Virus record (IMG/VR): IMGVR_UViG_3300033142_000724
Span: 1-44,578 of that record
Length of the DNA stretch: 44,578 bases
Reading direction: 5' to 3' (one strand)
From: a virus
Part shown: positions 3,012 to 44,578 of the stretch, piece by piece
Numbering within the stretch: the first letter of the stretch is position 1
Layout of the letters: the number at the start of each line of letters is the position of its first letter
Notes under the pieces: model-generated
The model's input: only the letters and a program-made list of their open reading frames with translations
The model's database searches: none
What the model was told of the DNA's origin: nothing
Made by a program: the position numbers and the translations under genes

Positions 3012-3899
3012 ATGAAACAGCAATTCATAGAAAAGAACTTTCGCACAAAGTCATGGAATCTAATTCACCAATGCAACACCATTCTAAACACCTACAAGTC
3101 ACAAGGCTATGATCTCTCACTGAGGCAGCTTTACTATCAGCTGGTATCGCGAGACATTATCCCTAATAGTCAGCGGTCATACGGCAACCTAGGAAATCTA
3201 GTGAATGATGCTAGGCTAGCTGGGTTGCTTGATTGGAGTATGATAGTTGACCGTGGAAGGTCCACCATAGCCAACACCCACTGGAACAACCCAGCTGAAA
3301 TAGTTAGGGCTGCTGCAAATAGTTTCAGAATAGACAAATGGAAGAACCAACCAAACCATATTGAAGTGATGGTTGAGAAACAAGCCCTTGAAGGTGTGCT
3401 TCAGCCTGTCTGTTCTCGCCTAGATGTTAATTTCACGGCCAACAAGGGCTATTCAAGCCAGTCTTTCATGTATTCCAAGGGCAGAGCCCTAAAGCGTATG
3501 CAGAAGGCAGGAAAGGCCATTCACGTTCTTTACCTTGGAGATCATGATCCAAGCGGGCTTGACATGGATCGGGATATTGACGATAGGTTGTCAATGTTTT
3601 CTGAATTGCCTGTTGTCAATGTTGATCGGTTGGCTCTTACCATGAATCAGATTGAACAATACAAACCACCAGAGAACCCTGCCAAGATAACTGATACAAG
3701 GGCTAAAAAGTATATCCAGAAACACGGCTATTCATCTTGGGAGCTAGACGCATTGGAGCCAAAGAAGCTTGCACAGCTGGTAACTGATGCCGTTGAAGCA
3801 TTGCGCGATCCTGATCTTTGGGATGATACGCTAGCAAAAGAAGCTGAAATGAAAACAGAACTAGATGAATGGGCTGATGAATATGAAGGGAAGGGGTAA
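3012..3899 (+). CDS. Stand-alone topoisomerase VI A / Spo11-like protein (Toprim domain)
   Basis: 295 residues. The N-terminal part has a winged-helix-like motif, LSLRQLYYQL, with Tyr41-Tyr42 placed like the catalytic tyrosine of the Topo VI A/Spo11 motif (K/R-R-E-x-Y-Y). The Toprim half has the metal-binding Glu122 (EVMVEK), a Gly-Tyr loop (ANKGYSS, about 143-149) and Asp177-x-Asp179 in GDHDPSG. A GHKL ATPase (B subunit) gene is not seen anywhere in the window. Solitary A-subunit relatives (Mini-A type) are known from mobile elements. It may cut or nick DNA to start replication or recombination. Fold assignment is fairly sure; activity is inference. Confidence 0.8.
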   Translation: MKQQFIEKNFRTKSWNLIHQCNTILNTYKSQGYDLSLRQLYYQLVSRDIIPNSQRSYGNLGNLVNDARLAGLLDWSMIVDRGRSTIANTHWNNPAEIVRAAANSFRIDKWKNQPNHIEVMVEKQALEGVLQPVCSRLDVNFTANKGYSSQSFMYSKGRALKRMQKAGKAIHVLYLGDHDPSGLDMDRDIDDRLSMFSELPVVNVDRLALTMNQIEQYKPPENPAKITDTRAKKYIQKHGYSSWELDALEPKKLAQLVTDAVEALRDPDLWDDTLAKEAEMKTELDEWADEYEGKG

Positions 3900-4142
3900 A
3901 TGAACATAGGTGATAAAAAACTTCCATGTCCCTACTGCGGTAAACTGCTTTCTTGGAATGAAGCTATTATGGGTATTGTTGTTCCAATGAATGTTTCTTA
4001 CCCAATTCCTGATGATGCCTATTCAATCAGCAACAGAATACATTGCATCCACTGCAAGAAAAAAATTAGTTGGGCTTGTGCAATAATACCTATTAAAAAA
4101 TATGAATGGATGAAACCAAGCATAGTAAGGGAGCAAGGCTGA
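3900..4142 (+). CDS. Small zinc-ribbon protein
   Basis: 80 residues with CPYCGK near the N-terminus and CIHCKK about 45 residues later, a probable four-Cys zinc site. The loop between them is hydrophobic (MGIVVPMNVSYPIPDD). It starts directly after the Topo VI A-like gene and ends in REQG with the GGGAGCAAGGCTGATG junction, so translation is coupled to the next gene. The function is not recognised. Confidence 0.7.
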   Translation: MNIGDKKLPCPYCGKLLSWNEAIMGIVVPMNVSYPIPDDAYSISNRIHCIHCKKKISWACAIIPIKKYEWMKPSIVREQG

Positions 4143-4372
4143 TGAAATGTAAACTTTGCAACGGTGAATTAGATCGTGGCGCCTGTTACAAATGTGGTAT
4201 AGCTTTTCCTATGCACCCTAATTACGTGAATGTAGATCAACAAGGTTTTGATGATGGGTATAGTGGTACACAAGTGGATCTTAATACTAAACCTACTAAT
4301 TATGTTCGTGGATATAATGAAGGAATAGAGAAAAAAATATTTGAGCAAAGGAACAAAACTGATGCCAACTAG
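4142..4372 (+). CDS. Small zinc-ribbon protein with GY repeat
   Basis: 76 residues. It starts with MKCKLCNGEL and a second pair CYKC, so a single zinc site is probable. The C-terminal half has two related turns, GFDDGYSG and YVRGYNEGIE, a helical pattern (G-x-x-x-G-Y/x-x-G) seen in unnamed phage proteins. The ATG at the TGATG junction is preferred to an upstream in-frame ATG inside the previous gene. No function can be given. Confidence 0.65.
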   Translation: MKCKLCNGELDRGACYKCGIAFPMHPNYVNVDQQGFDDGYSGTQVDLNTKPTNYVRGYNEGIEKKIFEQRNKTDAN

Positions 4373-4619
4373 AATAGATGTAACCGAGTTCACCAGAGAA
4401 CAGATAATAACTGTAATGGCAATTGGTGATCGTCTGGTATGCAAGCCAGTTTGCAGATGGGGAGCACCAACCATCACCAGAGTTATCACAGGGTTTCACA
4501 GGGGCTATTACAAAGTTAGAAGCATAGATGGTGGTCGACCAATGATCACATACAATGGTAGAAACTTTGTTGTTAAGTGGCATGAAATCAAAGCAGTGAT
4601 CAAAAAGGAGCAAGGCTGA
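4362..4619 (+). CDS. Hypothetical protein, first of a tandem duplicate pair
   Basis: 85 residues, starting MPTRID. Aligned with its right-hand neighbour it shares MPTRI, AIGDRLV, R-x-I-T-G-F, a Thr/His-Asn-Gly strand (YNGRNFVVKWHEIKA) and the tail IKKEQG. The pattern suggests a small beta-barrel or beta-sandwich with strand-turn repeats. It overlaps the previous gene by 11 bases. The ATG was chosen because the aligned copy starts at the same MPTRI. Confidence 0.7.
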   Translation: MPTRIDVTEFTREQIITVMAIGDRLVCKPVCRWGAPTITRVITGFHRGYYKVRSIDGGRPMITYNGRNFVVKWHEIKAVIKKEQG

Positions 4620-4876
4620 TGCCAACTAGAATTGAATTAGATGGAAGATCACCATATGAAATTAAGGCTAACATTGCAATTGGTGATCGTCTGGTGTTTC
4701 GATCTGGTGTTTGGGGTGTACACCCTAGGATCATCACCAGGAAGATAACAGGGTTTCTAAAAATGAATTTACCATTAACTTCTGATGGCAAACCAGAAGT
4801 TACACACAATGGTAAAGGTTATGTTGTACATTGGCACGAAATCAAAGCAATCATCAAAAAGGAGCAAGGCAAATGA
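4619..4876 (+). CDS. Hypothetical protein, second of a tandem duplicate pair
   Basis: 85 residues, a clear paralogue of the gene before it: it shares MPTRI, IAIGDRLVF, RIITRKITGF, HNGKGYVVHWHEIKAIIKK and the EQG tail, while the middle has diverged. The copies touch through AAAAAGGAGCAAGGCTGATG, so the duplication probably included the junction with its ribosome site. The function is unknown; two kept copies suggest separate partners or dosage. Confidence 0.72.
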   Translation: MPTRIELDGRSPYEIKANIAIGDRLVFRSGVWGVHPRIITRKITGFLKMNLPLTSDGKPEVTHNGKGYVVHWHEIKAIIKKEQGK

Positions 4877-6564: not shown

Positions 6565-6635
6565 TCATTGAACAAAAAAGTTTCTTGTGCAAGGTACTTG
6601 ACAGGATGAATTTCTTTCATATAGGATGCTTGATT

Positions 6636-6752
6636 GTGAAGGCTGGACTATCAGAGACACTGAGCACAACACCAGCCCGCGTGGCATCCTTTCCAGCCTT
6701 CACAGTTTGGGGTGATGTCAACCCTGGTGTTGTGCTTCGTGTTTCTGATAGT
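6636..6752 (+). ncRNA. Interleaved inverted repeats (pseudoknot- or switch-like) before the primase-helicase
   Basis: Arm A, GTGAAGGCTGG (6636-6646), is the exact reverse complement of A' (6693-6703). Arm B (6647-6675) is the reverse complement of B' (6724-6752) at 26 of 29 positions. The order A-B-A'-B' means the two stems interleave. They could form a pseudoknot together or be exclusive alternatives. B' ends five bases before the preferred start codon of the primase-helicase, so the structure could control its translation or be an RNase or terminator element. Confidence 0.6.
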
Positions 6753-6756
6753 ACCA

Positions 6757-9321
6757 ATGCGGACACAGAAAAGAATTGATGTGGTGTTGAAAGAAACAAT
6801 AGCTTTGTTTATCAATGCGGATCGGAAATTGATCCCTTTGAAACAAATTAGGCTAGACCTACCAACAGATAACCCATGGAACAAAAGACCACTATACAAC
6901 AACTGGACCACCAGACAGCACACCAAGAAACAAATTGAACATTTTGCAAAAAGGAAACACAACATTGGATGGTGTCTAGGTCCAAAGGATTTAATAATAG
7001 ATGTTGATGCTCGCAACAATGGCATTGAAGGATTTAAATTACTCCAAGCAGATTACCCACAAATTAATTTCAGCTTCTTTCCATCAGTTTCAACTGGTGG
7101 AGGGGGTTATCATATCTATGCAACCATACCATCAGAAATCGACGGTGCTAGAATTAGAAAAGGATTGCCGAAATACCCTGGCATTGACTTTCTTTCAAAT
7201 AACAGACAGATATTAATACCGGGCTGCATTCATCCAACTGGTAAATCTTATGAATGGATTGCTGATAGTCCATTCAATGATCAACCCCCTGAAATCCCCC
7301 TTAAGCTGTCTAGGCAGCTGGTATATAAAAATCCCTCCCAAACCAGCCAGCAGTCTAGGCAGCACCCTTCCACCTTACATACCCTTTCAGAGTTAGCAGA
7401 ACTGCTGTCAAAGCTTCCCGTTGAAGAGTACGATGATAATGATTCATGGTTCTCTTTAATGGCTTCAGCCCACCACTGCACAGCTGGTGAAGGCATTGAA
7501 GAATTTTTAGAGTGGTCACTAGATGATCCAGAGTACCAGGATGATGAACAAGTAATCAGATCTCGATGGGAATCGCTGGGAAGAAATGAAATAGATCCTA
7601 GAACAGTTAGAACAATCTACCGTGAAGTACAGAAGCATAATGGTGAGCTTCCAAACTTCACCACTGCATTACAGGATTTTGAAGATGATTTTGATAATGG
7701 AAATAATGCAAACTGCTTTGATGATCTGTTTGGTTTTGATGATGCTGCTGATACTACCAGCAATCTACCAGACACAAAGGGATCTAATAAAGCTGATGAA
7801 AGCAACAAGATCAGCCTTGATAGATACATTGGAAAGCTTACCAAAGAAACACCAATTGAACGAATCAATAAAGCTATTGCACAAGTTGGTAAACTATCTG
7901 CTGGAAATCAAGACAGATACATCAAAAAGATTGCTAGACGATCTGGTATCCGTTCAGAAACAATTAGAAGACAGATCAGATCAGAGCAAGAAAAAGCACA
8001 ATCGGATATAGAACAACGTATTGCAGATCGATTGCTGAAAGAAAAGTATTCAGATGGTGAGCATCTGATCTATACAATCAACCAAAGGTTTAGAGTGTTC
8101 AATGGTACTCACTGGTCTATCAAGCCAAAGCATCTATTAGAAAAGCACATTGAAAATATTGCTGAAGAAGTAAGAGATAAGGATAAAGATCTAGAGTTTA
8201 ACATAGCTCGTATCTTTGCAGGGGTTGATCGTATTGCGCGTGGTAGGGTGATGGTGGAAGAAGATTTATTTTCAATGAAGGATGGACCACCACCAATATT
8301 GAATCTAGCCAATGGTGAATTACACTTTGATGCACATGGTAATTCAAAGCTGAAGAGACATAATTACAAATCCTATTTACCCTGGTGTCTAGACCATATC
8401 AAACACAACTCTAAAGCCAAGTGCACTCTATATGATAACACCTTACTTGAAATATTCTCCAAGGCTGATGAACCAAAAGAAATAATTAGGCATATGTGGG
8501 AAATGCTGGGCTATGCAATTCAATCTGAAAAGAACCTTCCTATCTGGTGTATGTTCTATGGTCATGGCGCCGATGGTAAAAGCACCATCATTAGAATATG
8601 GGCTGCAATGCTAGGACCAGCAGCCATTTCACAAAGCCTATCTAGCCTAGATATTAGAAAGAATAAACACGCCTATTCAGAGTTACCAGGAAAGCTATTA
8701 CAGTATGATGCTGATCTAGCTGATGGTGTGTACCTGCCTGAAGCTTATCTAAAGAATGTTTCTGAAAATGGCTGGTTGCTTGCAGATCCAAAAGGAATGA
8801 CACCATATAACTTTAGAGCTTGCATTACATCCATTGCAGCAACCAACTATTTACCACCAATCAGAAATCTATCTAAGGGTGTTGCAAGGCGGGCAATGCT
8901 CATACCATTTAACCGAAGCTTTAAACAGGAAGAACAAGATATAAACAGGGCTGATAGAATAATTCAATCTGAATTGTCTGGTGTGTTGAACAAAGCATTG
9001 CAAGGGCTGAAGCGACTTAGAAAACGTGGTTACTTTTCTGAACCATCTGAATGCAAGCAATTAAAAAATACATGGATGGAACATAGTTCAAACATCTTAG
9101 CATTCTTGAATGAAGTGCAGCCAATCAGAAAGGATAGTTGGAGAAAGAGAAAGATGAATGCTAAGAAGCTCTATGAACAATTAAATGATTGGTACAATGA
9201 AGAAGAGATTGAAGGCAGAAACCGTGTCAGTTATCGCGGTATGGTAAAGAAATTGCGTGATATGGGTTTCATTATCAAACGTGGTAGCAGTGGCCTAACC
9301 TCAGTGGAAGTTAGAAGGTGA
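6757..9321 (+). CDS. Bifunctional primase-polymerase / SF3-type helicase
   Basis: About 854 residues. The N-terminal domain is an archaeo-eukaryotic Prim-Pol type primase: K-x-P-x-x-x-W entry motif, then IIDVDARNNG with Asp82 and Asp84 as metal ligands, and GGGGYHIY. An acidic linker (about 295-340) contains FEDDFDN and CFDDLFGFDD. The C-terminal part is a D5/SF3-like helicase with Walker A GHGADGKST (602-610) and an Asp-rich Walker B-like segment (LLQYDADLADG). It would prime and unwind at the phage origin. The start is uncertain: ATG 6757 lacks a good ribosome site, GTG 6781 follows AGAAAAG, and GTG 6712/ATG 6715 would include the upstream repeat arm. Confidence 0.9.
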   Translation: MRTQKRIDVVLKETIALFINADRKLIPLKQIRLDLPTDNPWNKRPLYNNWTTRQHTKKQIEHFAKRKHNIGWCLGPKDLIIDVDARNNGIEGFKLLQADYPQINFSFFPSVSTGGGGYHIYATIPSEIDGARIRKGLPKYPGIDFLSNNRQILIPGCIHPTGKSYEWIADSPFNDQPPEIPLKLSRQLVYKNPSQTSQQSRQHPSTLHTLSELAELLSKLPVEEYDDNDSWFSLMASAHHCTAGEGIEEFLEWSLDDPEYQDDEQVIRSRWESLGRNEIDPRTVRTIYREVQKHNGELPNFTTALQDFEDDFDNGNNANCFDDLFGFDDAADTTSNLPDTKGSNKADESNKISLDRYIGKLTKETPIERINKAIAQVGKLSAGNQDRYIKKIARRSGIRSETIRRQIRSEQEKAQSDIEQRIADRLLKEKYSDGEHLIYTINQRFRVFNGTHWSIKPKHLLEKHIENIAEEVRDKDKDLEFNIARIFAGVDRIARGRVMVEEDLFSMKDGPPPILNLANGELHFDAHGNSKLKRHNYKSYLPWCLDHIKHNSKAKCTLYDNTLLEIFSKADEPKEIIRHMWEMLGYAIQSEKNLPIWCMFYGHGADGKSTIIRIWAAMLGPAAISQSLSSLDIRKNKHAYSELPGKLLQYDADLADGVYLPEAYLKNVSENGWLLADPKGMTPYNFRACITSIAATNYLPPIRNLSKGVARRAMLIPFNRSFKQEEQDINRADRIIQSELSGVLNKALQGLKRLRKRGYFSEPSECKQLKNTWMEHSSNILAFLNEVQPIRKDSWRKRKMNAKKLYEQLNDWYNEEEIEGRNRVSYRGMVKKLRDMGFIIKRGSSGLTSVEVRR

Positions 9322-9838: not shown

Positions 9839-10102
9839 ATGAGCACCAAAAAGAAAAAGCCAACAACAACCCATGTGTTGAAACGGCTAAGGGGTGAAGT
9901 TACTAGGCTGAAGAAACGCGATAAGATGCACACCAATCATAAGATGCACCTATACTATTATATATCTCGTATGTCTCAATTCGATTGCTATACACCAGAA
10001 AATAAATGTGATCTGAACAATCAAACCAAATTAGATGAATGGTGCCCAAGTTGTCTAGCTAAACATCTGATGAACGCAACTGGTGTAAAGGAGCAAGGCT
10101 GA
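9839..10102 (+). CDS. Hypothetical basic Cys-containing protein
   Basis: 87 residues. The N-terminal 35 are very basic (STKKKKPTTTHVLKRLRGEVTRLKKRDK), and four cysteines (Cys50, Cys57, C-P-S-C near 69-72) can form one zinc site. It ends in VKEQG with the AAAGGAGCAAGGCTGATG junction. The basic part suggests nucleic-acid binding. Otherwise unknown. Confidence 0.62.
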   Translation: MSTKKKKPTTTHVLKRLRGEVTRLKKRDKMHTNHKMHLYYYISRMSQFDCYTPENKCDLNNQTKLDEWCPSCLAKHLMNATGVKEQG

Positions 10103-10287
10103 TGGTAACTCTCAACATGAAACGTTACAGAATGCTGCATAAGAAAGCAATGCAAGTTGATGAACAACCATACATCCCTTTTAGAAAGTGGCTTAGACAA
10201 GCTGCAAAGAACAAAGACATTAATGTGATTGGTGTAACTGGTAAGGTGCAACAGATTCTAACACCACCCAAGAAAGGTAAGAAGTAA
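10102..10287 (+). CDS. Hypothetical small basic protein
   Basis: 61 residues with many Lys/Arg, including the tail TPPKKGKK. A helix with FRKWLRQAAKN is followed by a short strand pair. It starts at a TGATG junction and its stop overlaps the next ATG (TAATG). Not recognised. Confidence 0.6.
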   Translation: MVTLNMKRYRMLHKKAMQVDEQPYIPFRKWLRQAAKNKDINVIGVTGKVQQILTPPKKGKK

Positions 10288-14343: not shown

Positions 14344-14733
14344 ATGGCAAAGAAAAACTCACTGAATGAAATGATTGCTGCTGCTACCACTGAATTCACA
14401 GCTGCAATCATCGATGCAATCAAGGCTGCTACATTGGATGATCTCCAATCACTAGCACCAACAAAGCGGAGAGGCAGAAAGCCCAGTAGAAAGCCCGGAC
14501 CTAAGCCCGGTAGAAAGCCCGGACCTAAGCCCGGTAGAAAGCCCGGACCTAAGCCCGGTAAGAAACGCGGACCAAAGCCCGGTTCAAAGCGCAAGCCCGG
14601 ATCTAAAAAGCCCGGACCTAAGCCCAGTAAGAAGAAGGCAGATGTGAAGAAGGTTGCAAAGAAGGTTGTGAAGAAGGCAGCTGTGAAGAAGGCAGCTGTG
14701 AAGAAGACAACCAAGCCAACTGAAAAGAAGTAA
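14344..14733 (+). CDS. Histone H1-like / AT-hook-like basic repeat protein
   Basis: 129 residues. A short helical start (about 1-38) is followed by RGRKP and repeats of R/K-K-P-G-P-K-P-G (about 42-95), then KKVAKKVVKKAAVKKAAVKK. The RGRKP unit is an AT-hook core, and the Lys-Ala tail resembles bacterial histone H1-like proteins. It should bind DNA with little sequence demand and compact it. Together with the two HU-like genes it forms a chromatin-like set. The DNA under the repeats has a 24-base tandem unit. Confidence 0.8.
   Translation: MAKKNSLNEMIAAATTEFTAAIIDAIKAATLDDLQSLAPTKRRGRKPSRKPGPKPGRKPGPKPGRKPGPKPGKKRGPKPGSKRKPGSKKPGPKPSKKKADVKKVAKKVVKKAAVKKAAVKKTTKPTEKK
14486..14634 (+). repeat. 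24-base tandem coding repeat
   Basis: The unit AGAAAGCCCGGACCTAAGCC (plus four bases) is repeated about three times exactly and then in changed copies. It encodes the R-K-P-G-P-K-P-G motif. Such a repeat can expand or shrink by slippage, so the length may vary between relatives. Confidence 0.7.
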
Positions 14734-14739
14734 TTGCAA

Positions 14740-15969
14740 ATGGGTTTACTAGCACAGCCTAGGAAACCTAGCTGGTCTGCCAGTTCTGCACATCGCTGGA
14801 TGCAATGTTCAGGGTGTGTAGGGCTGTGCAGATGGGTTGAACGTTCACCATCTAGTATCTATGCAAGGGAAGGTACAGCAGCCCACCACCTAGCGGCTAT
14901 CTGTTTAGAAGATGGTTGCATTCATCCAACACATTTGATTGGTGAAAAGCTGACAGCTGAACAATACTATGAAGATGATTACACCTTCACAGTTTCAAAT
15001 GATATGGCGTTAGCTGTTGGCAAGTATACCAGTCTGATTGAATCCCTTGCTAGTCACCACAAAGAAACCATCATACTAATTGAAAAAAAGATCTCACTAG
15101 CCAGCATCAATAAAAATATGCGTGGTGTAATTGATTGCTCTTTGGTGGTTCCTGGTGAAAGTCTGAAGGTACTAGATTACAAACATGGAAAGGGTGTGAT
15201 TGTTGACATTGAAGATAATGAACAGCTTATTTATTACGCACTAGGAGTAATAGAAAAGTTAGATTCAATGGGTGTTGATACTGACTTCAAAACAATAGAG
15301 CTATTTATTGTGCAGCCTAGATCATTTGGTGCATCAATTAAATCCTGGTTGATTGACAACCCTAGAAAATTTGTGAATACGTGGCACGGCAAGATCAAAA
15401 AAGCATACATAGCAACAATAGAAAACCAGGATGAATACCACATCAATAAAGATTGCAGATGGTGTAATGGTCTGGTGTGGTGTCCTAAGCTGAAAGAGTT
15501 TTGCCTAGACATTCAACGCAACATTGAAGGCAGGTATAAACAGATGAAAGATTTAAAGCCAAGTGAACTAACAGAACTGATCAGGGTTGCACCATCTGTA
15601 AATGCATATCTCCAAGCTGTTGCTGGCCATGGTAAAGAACTTGCATTGAATGGTAAAAAGTTTGATGGGTACAAGCTGGTACAAGCTGGTAGATCTTCAC
15701 GCAATTGGTTGAGTGGTAAAGAAGCTGATGTTATTTCATTCCTAGAAGATGAATGTTTCTTGGATGAAGAAGATTTCAAAACAGGTAAACTAATGTCACC
15801 AGCACAGCTAGAAAAGGAGATACCAGCAAAGCTATTTGACAAGTTAGGCAAATTCATTCACAGAAAAAGCTCAAGTGGTTTTGCATTGGTCCCTAACTCT
15901 GATCGAAGGCAAGCAGTAACAACAGCTGAAGATGATTTTGAAGATGATTTTGATGATCTGTTTAGCTGA
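14740..15969 (+). CDS. DUF2800 Cas4-like PD-(D/E)XK nuclease
   Basis: 409 residues. The start SWSASSAHRWMQCSGC and the layout match DUF2800. The nuclease core is Asp132 (GVIDCS), then Asp146 and Lys148 (VLDYKHGKG). Cys23 with Cys239, Cys242 and Cys248 (CRWC...C) is placed like the 4Fe-4S ligands of Cas4/AddB-type nucleases. It probably trims DNA ends for recombination or replication. The end EDDFEDDFDDLFS carries the acidic Leu-Phe motif. A TTG two codons upstream, directly after the previous stop, is an alternative start. Confidence 0.82.
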   Translation: MGLLAQPRKPSWSASSAHRWMQCSGCVGLCRWVERSPSSIYAREGTAAHHLAAICLEDGCIHPTHLIGEKLTAEQYYEDDYTFTVSNDMALAVGKYTSLIESLASHHKETIILIEKKISLASINKNMRGVIDCSLVVPGESLKVLDYKHGKGVIVDIEDNEQLIYYALGVIEKLDSMGVDTDFKTIELFIVQPRSFGASIKSWLIDNPRKFVNTWHGKIKKAYIATIENQDEYHINKDCRWCNGLVWCPKLKEFCLDIQRNIEGRYKQMKDLKPSELTELIRVAPSVNAYLQAVAGHGKELALNGKKFDGYKLVQAGRSSRNWLSGKEADVISFLEDECFLDEEDFKTGKLMSPAQLEKEIPAKLFDKLGKFIHRKSSSGFALVPNSDRRQAVTTAEDDFEDDFDDLFS

Positions 15970-15980
15970 AAGGTGAATTG

Positions 15981-16181
15981 ATGGTATATAAGATTGAAGG
16001 TGCAACCATCAAAGCAACAACTGGTAAAGCTATTCTAGTTGAAGCTGATTGTTTTGATGAAGATGAATGGATACCACTATCACAAGTTGATGATGAATCC
16101 GAGATATGGAGCAAAGGTGAAGAAGGTACATTGACTGTTAGTGATTGGATTGCAAACAAGAAAGGGTTGAACAATGACTGA
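15981..16181 (+). CDS. Hypothetical small acidic protein
   Basis: 66 residues, strand-rich first half (VYKIEGATIKATTGKAILVEA), then an acidic patch (FDEDEWIPLSQVDDESEIW). The I-x-A-T-x-K-A-I-L-V motif and W-I-P-x-S look like a small beta-barrel that I have seen beside phage single-strand binding genes. AAAGGTG lies before the ATG. It overlaps the next gene by eight bases. Confidence 0.65.
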   Translation: MVYKIEGATIKATTGKAILVEADCFDEDEWIPLSQVDDESEIWSKGEEGTLTVSDWIANKKGLNND

Positions 16182-16737
16182 TTTTATTAAGTCACCAGTT
16201 GGAAGGGTTAGTTTTCCATCAGTGTTTGAAAAAACATCATTTGAAAACAGTGAACCAAAGTATTCTGTAACTCTATTATTTGATGCTGATGATCCTGGTT
16301 TGAAGAAGCTAAAGAAGTTAGCAGCTGAAGCAATTAAAGAAAAGTGGAATGATGATCCACCTTCCAACATGCACAACCCTTTTAGAAAGGGATCAGAGAA
16401 ACCCGATCTAGATGGGTATGAAGGTAAGATATTTGTGAAGTTCAGTTCAACTCGTAAACCACAAGTAATGGACAAGTTCAAAAATGAATTGACAGATGTT
16501 GAAGATTTTTATGCAGGGTGCTTTGCTAAAGTGATGTGCAATACCTATGCATATGACAACATTGGAAGAGGTGTTGCTTTTGGGCTTGGCCATGTGCTGA
16601 AAGTAAAGGATGGTGATCCCTTTGGTGCTGGTTCATCTGATCCAATGGATGATTTCGCAGATGATTTTGATGATGATGATAATGATGGTGATGATTCTTC
16701 TAATTCAAGTGATGATCTAGATTCTCTTTTCGATTAG
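16174..16737 (+). CDS. DUF2815 single-stranded DNA-binding protein
   Basis: 187 residues. An OB-fold body (about 1-145; KYSVTLLFDADDP, then YAYDNIGRGVAFGLGHVLKV) matches the DUF2815/Enc34-like phage SSB family. It would coat single-stranded DNA at the fork. The tail (about 148-187) is almost all Asp/Asn/Ser and ends in DDLDSLFD, like the acidic docking tails of T7 gp2.5 and bacterial SSB, but with an own Leu-Phe core. It sits between the Cas4-like nuclease and the DNA polymerase, a common order. Confidence 0.85.
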   Translation: MTDFIKSPVGRVSFPSVFEKTSFENSEPKYSVTLLFDADDPGLKKLKKLAAEAIKEKWNDDPPSNMHNPFRKGSEKPDLDGYEGKIFVKFSSTRKPQVMDKFKNELTDVEDFYAGCFAKVMCNTYAYDNIGRGVAFGLGHVLKVKDGDPFGAGSSDPMDDFADDFDDDDNDGDDSSNSSDDLDSLFD

Positions 16738-16746
16738 ACTTTACCA

Positions 16747-18750
16747 ATGCCATTCAACCCACAAGTTGTAATTGATTTTGAAACCCGTTCAGAATTGAAC
16801 ATAACAAAAACATCTAACCATGTTTATGCAACACACCCTTCAACTGAAGTGATGTGTTTAGCATACAAGATCAACGGGAAAGAAACACAACTGTGGTTAC
16901 CTGATGATCATCTAATGCCAGAAAGCTTAGAAGGTATCATCAATAATGGCTGTGAAATATGGGGACACAACGTAGCATTTGAAAGAGCAATCTGGAATGC
17001 TATCATGGTTCCTGTTTTCGATTGGTGCAAAGTCAGTTTCAATCAGTGGTGCTGTTCTGCTGCACAAGCTGCTGCACTTTCATTGCCACGGTCACTTGAT
17101 AAGGTTGCAAAAGTTCTGAAGCTCACTGAACAGAAAGATGCATCTGGACATAAGGTAATGATGCGTCTTTCTAAACCTCGCAAACCTTCCAAGTATGATA
17201 AGAGCAAGTGGGATGAAACCCCGGAAAAATTACAGAAGCTTTACAGGTATTGCAAGCAAGATGTTGAAACTGAATATGCACTAACTGAAAAGTTACCAAA
17301 GCTAATACCATCTGAACAAAAGCTATGGCTGCTAGATCAGAAGATAAATGAACGGGGTGTATACTGCGATAGAGAAACCATCAACACCATCTTAGATATT
17401 ATTGATAGCATGTATGAAAATGCTTGTATGGAATTAGCAGAAATAACTGGTGGTGGGATTACTACACCAAACCAACGAGACAGAATAAAAGACTTTATAA
17501 GTTTTGTTGGTGGGCTTGATATGGATTCTCTAAATAAAGAAGATGTAATTGCAGCATTAGAAACAGACTTACCACCACCAGCTAGAAGGGTGCTGGAAAT
17601 TAGGCAGTTGCTAGGTAAAGCCAGCCTTGCAAAATACAAAGCATTCATTCAACGTATGAGTGCAGATGATAGAGTAAGAAATACTCTTATCTATTGTGGT
17701 GCTGATAGAACAGGCAGATGGGCTGGAAGTGGATTGCAGGTGCATAACATTGCGCGTGGTATGTTTAGTGGTGAAGATGAAATTAATTTCTGCATTGATA
17801 AAATCCAGACAAAGTGCCTAGATATTCTAACCATGATATATGACACCATCACTGATGTGATCAGCTGGCTAGGTAGATCAATGATTATGGCACCAGCTGG
17901 CAAGATGCTTTATTGTGGTGACTATTCTTCAATTGAAAACCGGGTTTTATTCTGGCTTGCTAGAGAAACAAAAGCATTGAAGGCATTGAAAGCAGTTGAT
18001 GCAGATCCAAAGAATAACCCAGACCTATACCGCATCACAGCAGGTACCATCTATAACAAGCAACCATTGCAGGTTACCAATGATGAAAGGTTTATAGGCA
18101 AGCAAGCTAACCTAGGTTTGGGTTATGGTATGGGTGCAACCAAGTTCAAAAGCAACTGTGAAGATAAAGCTGCTGCAATGGGGATGTATCTAGACTTACC
18201 ACCAGAATTCTATAAACGAGTTACAAAGACTTGGCGAAGTACATACAGCAATGTAAAGAAGTTCTGGAATGATATTGAATGGGCTGTGATAAATGCAATC
18301 TTAGATGGTAAGACTTCAGTTGTAAATAAATACATTCAGATTCAAATGAAGAAAGGGCTATTGCTTATTCAGTTACCTAGTGGAAGGTGCCTTGTATATC
18401 ATCAACCAAAGCTATCTGAAGAAATGACTTCATGGGGTGAAATGAAATACAAGATTTCTTACATGGGAAATCACAGCACTTCTAAGAAGTGGGTGAAGAT
18501 CTATTCATGGGGTGGAAAGTTTGTTGAAAACATTGTGCAAGCTGTATCAAGGGATCTACTTGCTCACGCAATGACAACAATAGATGAAGCTGGTTACTTC
18601 ATTACCATGCATGTACATGATGAAATTGTGTGTGAAGAATCTGAACTGCCATTCAATAAATTCTTAGAGCTAATGCAATCAAAACCAGTATGGGCTTTAG
18701 ACTGTCCGATCAAGGTGGAAGGTTGGAAGGGAAAGAGGTACAGGAAATGA
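16747..18750 (+). CDS. Family A DNA polymerase with 3'-5' exonuclease
   Basis: 667 residues. Exonuclease motifs: VIDFETRSE (Asp10, Glu12), GHNVAFERAIW (about 73-83) and Y-C-K-Q-D-V-E-T-E-Y (about 167-176). Polymerase motifs: A, GDYSSIENR (Asp392); B, K-Q-A-N-L-G-L-G-Y-G (Lys452); C, HVHDEIV (Asp625, Glu626). All are intact, so it should be the replicative polymerase. It lacks an obvious acidic end of its own. The next gene starts inside its last codons (ATGA). Confidence 0.93.
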   Translation: MPFNPQVVIDFETRSELNITKTSNHVYATHPSTEVMCLAYKINGKETQLWLPDDHLMPESLEGIINNGCEIWGHNVAFERAIWNAIMVPVFDWCKVSFNQWCCSAAQAAALSLPRSLDKVAKVLKLTEQKDASGHKVMMRLSKPRKPSKYDKSKWDETPEKLQKLYRYCKQDVETEYALTEKLPKLIPSEQKLWLLDQKINERGVYCDRETINTILDIIDSMYENACMELAEITGGGITTPNQRDRIKDFISFVGGLDMDSLNKEDVIAALETDLPPPARRVLEIRQLLGKASLAKYKAFIQRMSADDRVRNTLIYCGADRTGRWAGSGLQVHNIARGMFSGEDEINFCIDKIQTKCLDILTMIYDTITDVISWLGRSMIMAPAGKMLYCGDYSSIENRVLFWLARETKALKALKAVDADPKNNPDLYRITAGTIYNKQPLQVTNDERFIGKQANLGLGYGMGATKFKSNCEDKAAAMGMYLDLPPEFYKRVTKTWRSTYSNVKKFWNDIEWAVINAILDGKTSVVNKYIQIQMKKGLLLIQLPSGRCLVYHQPKLSEEMTSWGEMKYKISYMGNHSTSKKWVKIYSWGGKFVENIVQAVSRDLLAHAMTTIDEAGYFITMHVHDEIVCEESELPFNKFLELMQSKPVWALDCPIKVEGWKGKRYRK

Positions 18751-19016
18751 GGGAATCAAAGATTGAATCCTATGCTGTAAAGATAGCCAAGCAAAAAGGT
18801 TTTATGGCTGTCAAGTATAAGGATGAATCTAGAAATGGTGGGCCAGATCATTTATTTCTTGGACCTAGCAAAGATATATTTTGGATTGAATTTAAAAGAC
18901 TAGGGGAGAAACCAAAACCACACCAATTGAAGTACCATGATATGCTTAGGTCACTTGGCTTTGAAGTGTATGTAATAGACTGCAAAGAAGATGTTGATGA
19001 ATTGTTTGGTATATAG
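18747..19016 (+). CDS. VRR-NUC domain nuclease
   Basis: 89 residues, the size of stand-alone viral VRR-NUC proteins. Motifs: Glu7 (IESYAVKIAK), Asp34 in NGGPDHLF, Glu48-x-Lys50 in IEFKRLG and Gln60 (HQLKYH). These proteins cut branched or structured DNA. The end EDVDELFGI again has an acidic Leu-Phe core. It overlaps the polymerase by four bases and the helicase by one (TAGTG). The frame starting 19 codons earlier inside the polymerase was rejected. Confidence 0.85.
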   Translation: MRESKIESYAVKIAKQKGFMAVKYKDESRNGGPDHLFLGPSKDIFWIEFKRLGEKPKPHQLKYHDMLRSLGFEVYVIDCKEDVDELFGI

Positions 19017-20428
19017 TGCACTTCACCCCATACCAGAAGCAAAGGGAAGCTATAACCTTTTTATTGAAGCACCCTTTCTCTGGTGTGTTTGCTGATCCTG
19101 GTGAGGGAAAGACAGCAATCACCCTTTCTACAATCAACATTCTAAAACGACTGCGAACCAATTACAGTGCATTGATAGTTGCACCGTTGACAGTTTGTTA
19201 CAATGTTTGGCCAGATGAAATAGCACTATGGGACCAGTTCAATGAAATTGATTGGTGTATTCTCCATGGGAAACACAAGCTAGAAAAGCTCCAAGAGAAA
19301 CATGATCTATATCTTATAAACCCCGAAGCAATGAAGTGGTTGTTTCAAAACCTTTCACGGTATTATAGAAAATTTCCTTACTATCATTTAATTCTAGATG
19401 AGAGCACCAGATTTAAAAATATGCGTGGTGTTCAGAACAAAACTGAAAGATGTAGAGCACTGAAGATCTTTCTTCACCGATTCAAAAGGCGTACCATTCT
19501 AACCGGGACACCAATCCCGGAATCATTACTAGATATATTCGGGCAAATGTATTGTATTGATGAAGGTAAAACCCTTGGTAAACACATTGTCATTTTCAGA
19601 GAAAAGTATTTCAATGATCGTGGATACAAACACCACCACAAATGGATTGCAAGGCCAGAAGCAAGCAAAGCAATTGAAGAAAGAATTGCACCTAGAATTC
19701 TTAGAATAGAAACAGAACACAAAAAAGATCCTATCATCAATAAAGTATGGGTAACATTACCACCAGAGATTCAAGCCAACTATGATGAATTAGAAAAGAA
19801 ACTTTATACCACCATTGAAGGTGAAGAATATTTTACAGATACAGCAACCAGCAAATACAATGCACTTAGACAAATTGCATCAGGTTGCCTTTATGAAAAA
19901 ATAGATTCTTTTGAAAACACACCTAAACTTTTCAGAAGAAAAACTTATAATTTACACCTTGCAAAATTTGAAGCTCTAGAGAATCTGATAAATGAGCTTC
20001 ACGGTAAACCGCTGCTGATAGGATACTATTATAGATTTATCATACCTCACCTAGAGAAAGCCCTAAAGGTGTCTCTACCTGCCTTGAATGGTGACACCAG
20101 CCAGTCTACAATGAAAAAGTATATAAGGCAGTGGAACAAAAGCAAGCTACCACTGATGGTGGGCCAGCCCCAATCTATAGGCCACGGGTTGAACCTGCAC
20201 AAAGGGATCGGGCGAGATATAGCATGGTACAATTTACCAGATCGGTTTGAATGGTTTGATCAGTTCAACAGAAGAATTCACAGATCTGGTGTAACAGCTA
20301 GGGTGCACTTGATACTTGCTCGAAACACCATCGATCAGTTATTATGGTATCGACTGCACAAGAAAGGTTCCAATCAGCAGACTCTATTGGATGGGCTGAA
20401 AGGTTATCTAAAAGAAAGGTATGGATGA
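19016..20428 (+). CDS. SNF2-like superfamily 2 helicase/translocase
   Basis: 470 residues. The start [11 protein letters not shown] is a Q-motif, then Walker A at 29-33 (DPGEGKT), DEST at 128-131, T-G-T-P-I-P-E-S (motif III) and a second lobe ending in [12 protein letters not shown] and [10 protein letters not shown] (motifs V and VI). It should move on double-stranded DNA. Together with VRR-NUC it forms a pair found in many phages. It uses GTG as start, directly at the upstream stop. Confidence 0.88.
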
Positions 20429-21198
20429 TGAAATATTTTTTTATTATTTTTCTAATTGGTTGTGTAGAACATCACCACCATTATTATGATGCAAGCCCAT
20501 TAGAAGATGTTTCATCTTCAGATGGTGATACAGATTCAGATAGTGATACAGATACAGACACAGATGCAGATTCAGATAGTGATACAGATACAGACACAGA
20601 TGCAGATACAGACACAGATGCAGATTCAGATAGTGATACAGATACAGACACAGATGCAGATACAGACACAGATGCAGATTCAGATAGTGATACAGATACA
20701 GACACAGATGCAGATTCAGATAGTGATACAGATACAGACACAGATGCAGATTCAGATAGTGATACTGGTCTAGGTTGCTTAGAAGGTAGCTATACTATTG
20801 AAAACCAGTTTGATGTAATACCAATTCAACCATACAGCTGCATCAGTGGAAATCTAATAGTTGATGCACCAGGATTACAATTACTAGAATTACCAAATTT
20901 AAAAAGCATTGGTGGCAATCTGTGGATCACAGGATCATTCTTCAACCTAGATGGTATTTCAACAATAGTAAATATTGGTGGTGATTTAAATATTAGTGGT
21001 TGTGAAAACCTAGTAAACCTAAATGGTCTAGAAAATATTATCACTATTAATAATTTATATATGTATGAAAACCCAAGCTTGTTAGGGTGTGAAATATGTG
21101 AATTTATCAACCAACTAAATTTAACCCCTGATAATTTTGAAGTATACTATTTTTTAGAAGATGAATGCTATTCTGAATTGAATGGTTTTGATTGCTAA
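20425..21198 (+). CDS. Surface lipoprotein with Asp-Thr/Ser repeats and receptor-L-like repeats
   Basis: 257 residues. A short signal with lipobox L-I-G-C (lipidated Cys at residue 13) is followed by VEHHHHYY. From about 37 to 114 there is a nearly pure Asp-Ser/Thr/Ala stalk. The C-terminal part (about 116-257) has strand repeats of the G-x-L-x-I-x-x-x-x-x-L-x-x-L type ([25 protein letters not shown]), as in receptor L domains, and six or more Cys. It is probably exported to the outer membrane. Such stalked lipoproteins are common in Myxococcota, so host origin is likely. It may block superinfection or mask the receptor. Confidence 0.78.
20533..20766 (+). repeat. 36/18-base tandem coding repeat
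   Basis: Five 36-base units encode [12 protein letters not shown], with two 18-base half units (DTDTDA) inserted and a last partial unit. The units are nearly identical at the DNA level, which suggests recent expansion by slippage or recombination. The stalk length is thus probably variable. Confidence 0.8.
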
Positions 21199-44563: not shown

Positions 44564-44578
44564 CCGCGCGACACATAG
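44564..44578. repeat. Terminal direct repeat, right copy (candidate cos end)
   Basis: Identical to bases 1-15 of the window. It is 131 bases upstream of the small terminase start codon, near the distance seen in lambda. See the left copy for the alternatives. Confidence 0.6.

Follow-up and report, generated by a model that had tools for sequence, protein, structure and literature searches.

A phage protein of the Mini-A family

How would the DNA cleavage module of Topo VI-A and Spo11, usually portrayed as working together with a B-type partner, act alone? The question is raised by IMG/VR virus record IMGVR_UViG_3300033142_000724 (44,578 nucleotides, analyzed at full length and termed the window here), in which an ORF at positions 3012 to 3899 (plus strand, as are the Mini-A domains and residues and the replication genes given coordinates below) starts with ATG and encodes 295 residues. 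We interpret the product as a predicted stand-alone Topo VI-A/Spo11-like tyrosine transesterase on the basis of the ORF, PHROG and tblastn matches, conservation and models. The best overall explanation, to which we assign a probability of about 0.5, is a phage Mini-A, that is, a protein of Topo VI-A fold working without any Topo VI-B. A partnerless family this widespread (more than 500 viral stretches in a single scan) that retains the active site would show the solo action of the cleavage module.

The PHROG profile phrog_6247, annotated “DNA topoisomerase,” matches residues 1 to 292 (E = 1.1e-109) and tblastn retrieves homologues from 76 phage and 53 plasmid records (identity up to about 49%); this is therefore not a chance ORF, and the earlier statement that Mini-A relatives occur in mobile elements holds. 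Single scans returned at least 550 relatives in IMG/VR and 181 among species genomes. Pseudomonas phage NP1 encodes a protein with 44.3% identity over 100% of the query (E = 5e-76) that serves as the Mini-A exemplar in a review. The family predates this analysis; PMC8185306 credits it to Takahashi et al. 2020. The NP1 and window proteins share full-length homology (44%), a size of about 300 residues, a winged helix plus Toprim architecture, the lack of a B subunit and coding by a mobile element, and nothing was found that sets the window protein apart from the family; the replication context differs, with Prim-Pol and DUF2800-PolA in the window versus a ligase/ThyX/Sak4 block in NP1. In the defining paper of 2020, Takahashi and co-workers are said to have separated Topo VI, VIII and Mini-A by a C-terminal motif. 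Neither Pfam nor NCBIfam has a family that matches the window protein, PDB sequence searches with this sequence and with a 10-sequence profile returned no match, and TP6A_N (PF04406) has no match anywhere in the 44,578-base record. We found no published test of Mini-A function. Taken together, the sequence and the fold of both halves make membership in Mini-A almost certain, and the window protein is a new member of this published phage family, not a new kind.

The two halves of Mini-A and the Topo VI-A fold

The translation places LRQLYYQL at residues 37 to 44 (with R38, Y41 and Y42 inside), E122 within VEKQAL, and D177 and D179 within LGDHDPSG, the tyrosine pair and the three acids standing at the positions given in the original prediction. 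An AlphaFold2 model built with 123 homologues has a pLDDT of 95.6 and a pTM of 0.88, and the N-terminal 112 residues modeled alone reach a pLDDT of 89.4. In VIA-align, the Toprim half (Toprim domain plus C-terminal part, residues 97 to 264; 3300 to 3803) finds M. jannaschii Topo VI-A as its best match (1D3Y residues 158 to 364; Z 11.1, rmsd 5.0, 153 aligned) and the N-terminal model likewise ranks 1D3Y first (Z 8.2, rmsd 2.2, 69 aligned), the Z score for either half alone being modest. Within 1 Z of 1D3Y, the Toprim half also matches JetD (second best, Z 10.9), a C. glutamicum nuclease, Topo VI from M. mazei and S. shibatae, and two entries of a small Toprim protein; MksG scores 10.6, and Spo11 (8URQ), which is of the same fold class and likewise combines a tyrosine with a Toprim domain, scores 8.9. 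The likeness to JetD and MksG is thus one of the Toprim half, whereas for the N-terminal half Topo VI-A takes first place: after 1D3Y come M. mazei Topo VI (Z 7.2) and unrelated winged helices from 6.7 down, with no JetD or MksG chain among the best 50 matches listed.

In this N-terminal superposition, 1D3Y residues 72 to 143 align to Mini-A residues 11 to 82, a winged-helix (5Y-CAP-like) domain at 3042 to 3257. Because the offset is 61 at both ends, Y42 falls on Tyr103, which we take to be the catalytic tyrosine of M. jannaschii Topo VI-A. That two separately tested halves pick the same structure in the same order, with Y42 on Tyr103, is strong model-based evidence for a Topo VI-A fold. The superposition that had been proposed as a check thus came out in favor of the original prediction, as did, with phrog_6247 and the NP1 match, its assignment to a Topo VI-A/Spo11-type protein of the Mini-A type that combines winged helix and Toprim without a B subunit.

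For the sequence comparison that had been proposed alongside, 26 archaeal Topo VI-A sequences were compared by hhalign, and the match was weak (P 0.009, probability 4.6%) and confined to the Toprim region. Mini-A and Topo VI-A have in common the fold of both halves, the LR-x-LYY motif (consensus STLRELYYISE versus LSLRQLYYQL in the window) and the Toprim acids in the same order; they differ in that no whole-length sequence match is significant, that most of the Topo VI-A segment N-terminal to the winged helix is missing from Mini-A, whose tyrosine lies at 42 versus 75 to 111, and that the window protein has 295 residues versus about 340 to 378. Foldseek found nothing at E ≤ 0.001 with either the whole or the N-terminal model. 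PurE and other Rossmann-like folds led the whole-model list, mostly at an rmsd of about 10 to 16 Å, and were dismissed as noise, since Topo VI-A leads the VIA ranking with either half.

Our models are of monomers, and a dimer is assumed. Topo VI-A and Spo11 are dimeric cutters with hybrid active sites that yield 5'-tyrosyl DNA products, each tyrosine being paired with the Toprim pocket of the opposite protomer (PMC11746154). A large distance between Tyr41/42 and the Toprim acids, which had been put forward as a way to refute the assignment, is for this reason no valid test in a monomer model.

Conservation of the candidate catalytic residues

R38 (3123 to 3125), Y42 (3135 to 3137), E122 (3375 to 3377; a candidate Toprim metal ligand), D177 and D179 of the D177-H178-D179 Toprim DxD motif (3540 to 3548), and S181 are invariant in 163 relatives aligned to the window protein, the viral alignment set having been fetched partly with patterns that contain the YY motif. 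R38 is the counterpart of the Topo VI-A arginine four residues before the tyrosine (R102 in M. mazei). Y41 (3132 to 3134) is replaced by Phe in four of the 163. In the genome alignment set, for which the retrieval patterns lay outside the tyrosine motif, Y42 is kept in 80/80 and Y41 in 79/80. Remote archaeal and actinobacterial-plasmid relatives have FY, CY or WY at this site and the remotest HY, and the second tyrosine is kept in all of 11 further relatives, most of them remote. Since Y42 is invariant whereas Y41 is replaceable, Y42 and not Y41 is the likely nucleophile, a choice with which the N-terminal model agrees. The notion of a Tyr41/Tyr42 active-site pair accordingly survives for its second member alone, the first giving way to F, C, W or H in distant relatives; the proposed check on residue loss had the same outcome, in that Y42 and the acids never vary among the 163 relatives and Y41 does.

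Farther out, the acids are less strictly kept. Among the 11 further relatives, the E122 site is Val in one and Glu in the rest, and the D179 site is Asn in two; the Toprim acids vary further in the remotest archaeal homologues. Four archaeal ORFs (L211, L214, L215 and L216) have a weakly Mini-A-like Toprim region with DLS in place of DHD and, from their sequence, are possibly inactive relatives.

Toward the C terminus, a WELDAL motif (residues 243 to 248; 3738 to 3755) keeps E244 in 133 of 134 sequences. M. mazei E342 lies at Tyr+236, a spacing shared by the Glu of a KxEQQ motif in most archaeal Topo VI-A sequences compared, and by motif order E244 is its candidate counterpart in Mini-A.

Mini-A lacks a Topo VI-B partner

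Topo VI is an A2B2 heterotetramer with a GHKL B subunit. In searches whose controls behaved as expected, neither HATPase_c (PF02518) nor Topo-VIb_trans (PF09239) matched anywhere in the 44,578-base Mini-A record, as anticipated from the original reading that no GHKL ATPase gene is visible in the window. Both families are also absent from nine other Mini-A replicons (eight complete phages and one complete plasmid). The first 15 bases of the record (1 to 15) equal the last 15 (44,564 to 44,578; CCGCGCGACACATAG), and it is therefore probably a whole circular map; IMG/VR attaches no completeness estimate to it.

The idea of a B subunit supplied by the host was rejected, 47 of 48 Mini-A-bearing host genomes having no Topo VI-B. 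A hidden partner encoded beside Mini-A was also sought and rejected: no Pfam family is common to more than four of 125 upstream or 121 downstream genes, and in BLAST clustering of the neighbors the shared ones were integrases, helicases, methylases and similar genes only. With no B gene in the window or the nine replicons and no Topo VI-B in 47/48 hosts, the absence of a partner is a trait of the Mini-A family.

Spo11 makes eukaryotic meiotic breaks with a TOP6BL-type partner, whereas the virus genome that encodes Mini-A has no B-type gene. Topo VIII shares the type IIB A-type core and the association with mobile elements, but it includes an ATPase domain, either fused to the A-like part or forming a pair with it, in contrast to a 295-residue Mini-A in a record with no GHKL match. 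JetD and MksG of Wadjet work with the JetABC/MksBEF SMC complex; no shared defense neighborhood was seen beside Mini-A, nor is an SMC family among the neighbor families listed.

Mini-A in phage replication regions and in small replicons

Genes for sheath, baseplate, portal and large terminase on the minus strand show the window to be a tailed phage. Mini-A lies in an early plus-strand region together with small ORFs, a Prim-Pol/D5-type primase-helicase (6757 to 9321, the start codon at 6757 being inferred) and a replication–recombination module comprising a DUF2800/RecB-like nuclease (14,734 to 15,969), a Gp2.5-like ssDNA-binding/annealing protein (16,174 to 16,737), a family A DNA polymerase, PolA (16,747 to 18,750), an endonuclease or Holliday-junction-resolvase-like protein (18,690 to 19,016) and an SNF2-type helicase (19,016 to 20,428). 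In LWP01 (L007) and loci L078, L082, L120, L131 and L165, Mini-A starts 1.5 to 2.8 kb upstream of the same DUF2800–annealing protein–PolA block, and in NP1 a Sak4-like annealing protein is the next gene downstream. DUF2800 homologues are found in 821 phage records versus 76 for Mini-A, so many phages can do without Mini-A.

Two small circular replicons have a different content. LC711082, an archaeal plasmid of 8776 bp, encodes a relative named “Topo Mini-A” in the record, which is its sole named enzyme; the remaining genes are hypothetical or zinc finger, and Pfam had no convincing match for the ten longer of them. NZ_CP009289 (L220), a Paenibacillus durus record of 15,151 bp annotated as a plasmid, encodes, besides Mini-A, Zot, a paralogous pair of small coat-like membrane proteins and a 519-residue secreted protein rich in Pro and Gly; Pfam searches turned up no domain of a Rep, primase or polymerase, and the record has the look of an inovirus-type element that carries Mini-A instead of a known replication protein. 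Moorella phage MCACPph1 has Zot and three neighboring proteins, a block that includes membrane proteins, in common with NZ_CP009289; it has an annotated replication initiation protein and a G39P-like loader, and Mini-A is absent. This swap between Mini-A and replication genes points to an initiator role, as a suggestive observation and not as proof. Searches for more small replicons yielded only an already known locus via the Paenibacillus Zot and nothing via the archaeal Mini-A. Because Mini-A is the sole recognizable DNA-breaking enzyme in both replicons, the initiator idea is testable, and at 8.8 and 15.2 kb they are small enough for a direct test of replication start by Mini-A; both also encode unannotated proteins, which could be the true initiator.

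Proposed activity and alternatives

The chemistry is probably that of a homodimer. One subunit would contribute Y42 for the attack on DNA and the other the metal pocket (E122/D177/D179), and the products would be a 5'-phosphotyrosine plus a free 3'-OH. R38 and E244 may form a clasp that restrains cleavage, like R102–E342 in M. mazei Topo VI, where E342Q cuts more (PMC13040014). ATP-driven strand passage is not expected, since the GHKL gate is absent. What the cleavage serves is more tentative, and we put the following role at slightly below even odds: Mini-A would introduce nicks or breaks into the phage's own DNA, the 3'-OH ends would start or restart replication or recombination, and the lesions would later be resealed or processed.

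The main rival, which we consider unlikely, is an ATP-independent topoisomerase, with Y42 nicking one strand, the DNA swiveling and the nick being resealed, such that supercoils are relaxed ahead of phage forks. The location of Mini-A in the replication region is consistent with this activity, and a paired active site would permit nick-and-swivel. Mouse SPO11–TOP6BL nicks, reseals and relaxes supercoils, swiveling about the nick being the authors' model (PMC11922745), and M. marina Topo VIII relaxes DNA without ATP (PMC7614492). However, the presence of Mini-A on replicons of 8.8 and 15 kb is harder to explain by a topological need. The hosts' own enzymes also argue against it, as bacteria normally carry gyrase and topo IV.

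A bolder reading, which we regard as doubtful, would make Mini-A a new class of replication initiator, an enzyme of Topo VI-A fold that nicks or breaks the origin and passes the 3'-OH on to a polymerase. In small plasmids and filamentous-phage-like elements it would stand in for HUH Rep, and in tailed phages it would initiate recombination-dependent replication. Improbable, in our estimate, is a strictly rolling-circle-type or origin-specific initiator that nicks the origin site specifically and, like HUH Rep, lets the 3'-OH serve as primer, albeit with a Topo VI-A fold. Its 5'-Tyr and 3'-OH products would be the same as those of HUH Rep, and the 15.2-kb Paenibacillus element without Rep, primase or polymerase domains by Pfam, its Moorella relative with other replication genes, and the 8.8-kb archaeal plasmid with Mini-A as only named enzyme all speak for it; on the other side stand the primase and polymerase already present in many Mini-A phages, the unannotated proteins of both small replicons, and the weak sequence specificity of Topo VI-A and Spo11. 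Finally, a conflict nuclease that destroys host DNA or acts between elements is very improbable, as the close JetD match of the Toprim half is outweighed by an invariant Y42 and R38 that match Topo VI-A and would be superfluous for a plain hydrolytic nuclease, and by the lack of a conserved neighbor family beside Mini-A.

Other sequence features

Roseobacter phage RDJL Phi 1 (L009, 5938 to 6887) has Mini-A annotated as two genes, and the match likewise falls into two parts, which may reflect a frameshift or an error in sequencing. In the window, a 29-nt inverted repeat (90%) and an interlocked 13-nt inverted repeat occupy 6635 to 6752, just before the likely primase-helicase ATG at 6757; the RNA fold has −64.3 kcal/mol (z −7.8) with no Rfam match, and the repeat is a candidate for an origin or a regulatory hairpin. 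An ORF without family match (20,344 to 21,198) contains, at 20,463 to 20,804, an 18-bp repeat in 14 overlapping register copies, and 12-bp repeats at 14,455 to 14,643 (AAGCCCGGT/ACCT) encode a Lys-Pro-Gly-rich tract of ORF 14,344 to 14,733. Near-identical AAGGAGCAAGGC-TGATG blocks at 4109 to 4144, 4586 to 4621, 4840 to 4875 and 10,069 to 10,104 mark the starts of several small early genes and, judged by their sequence, represent a putative repeated ribosome-binding leader.
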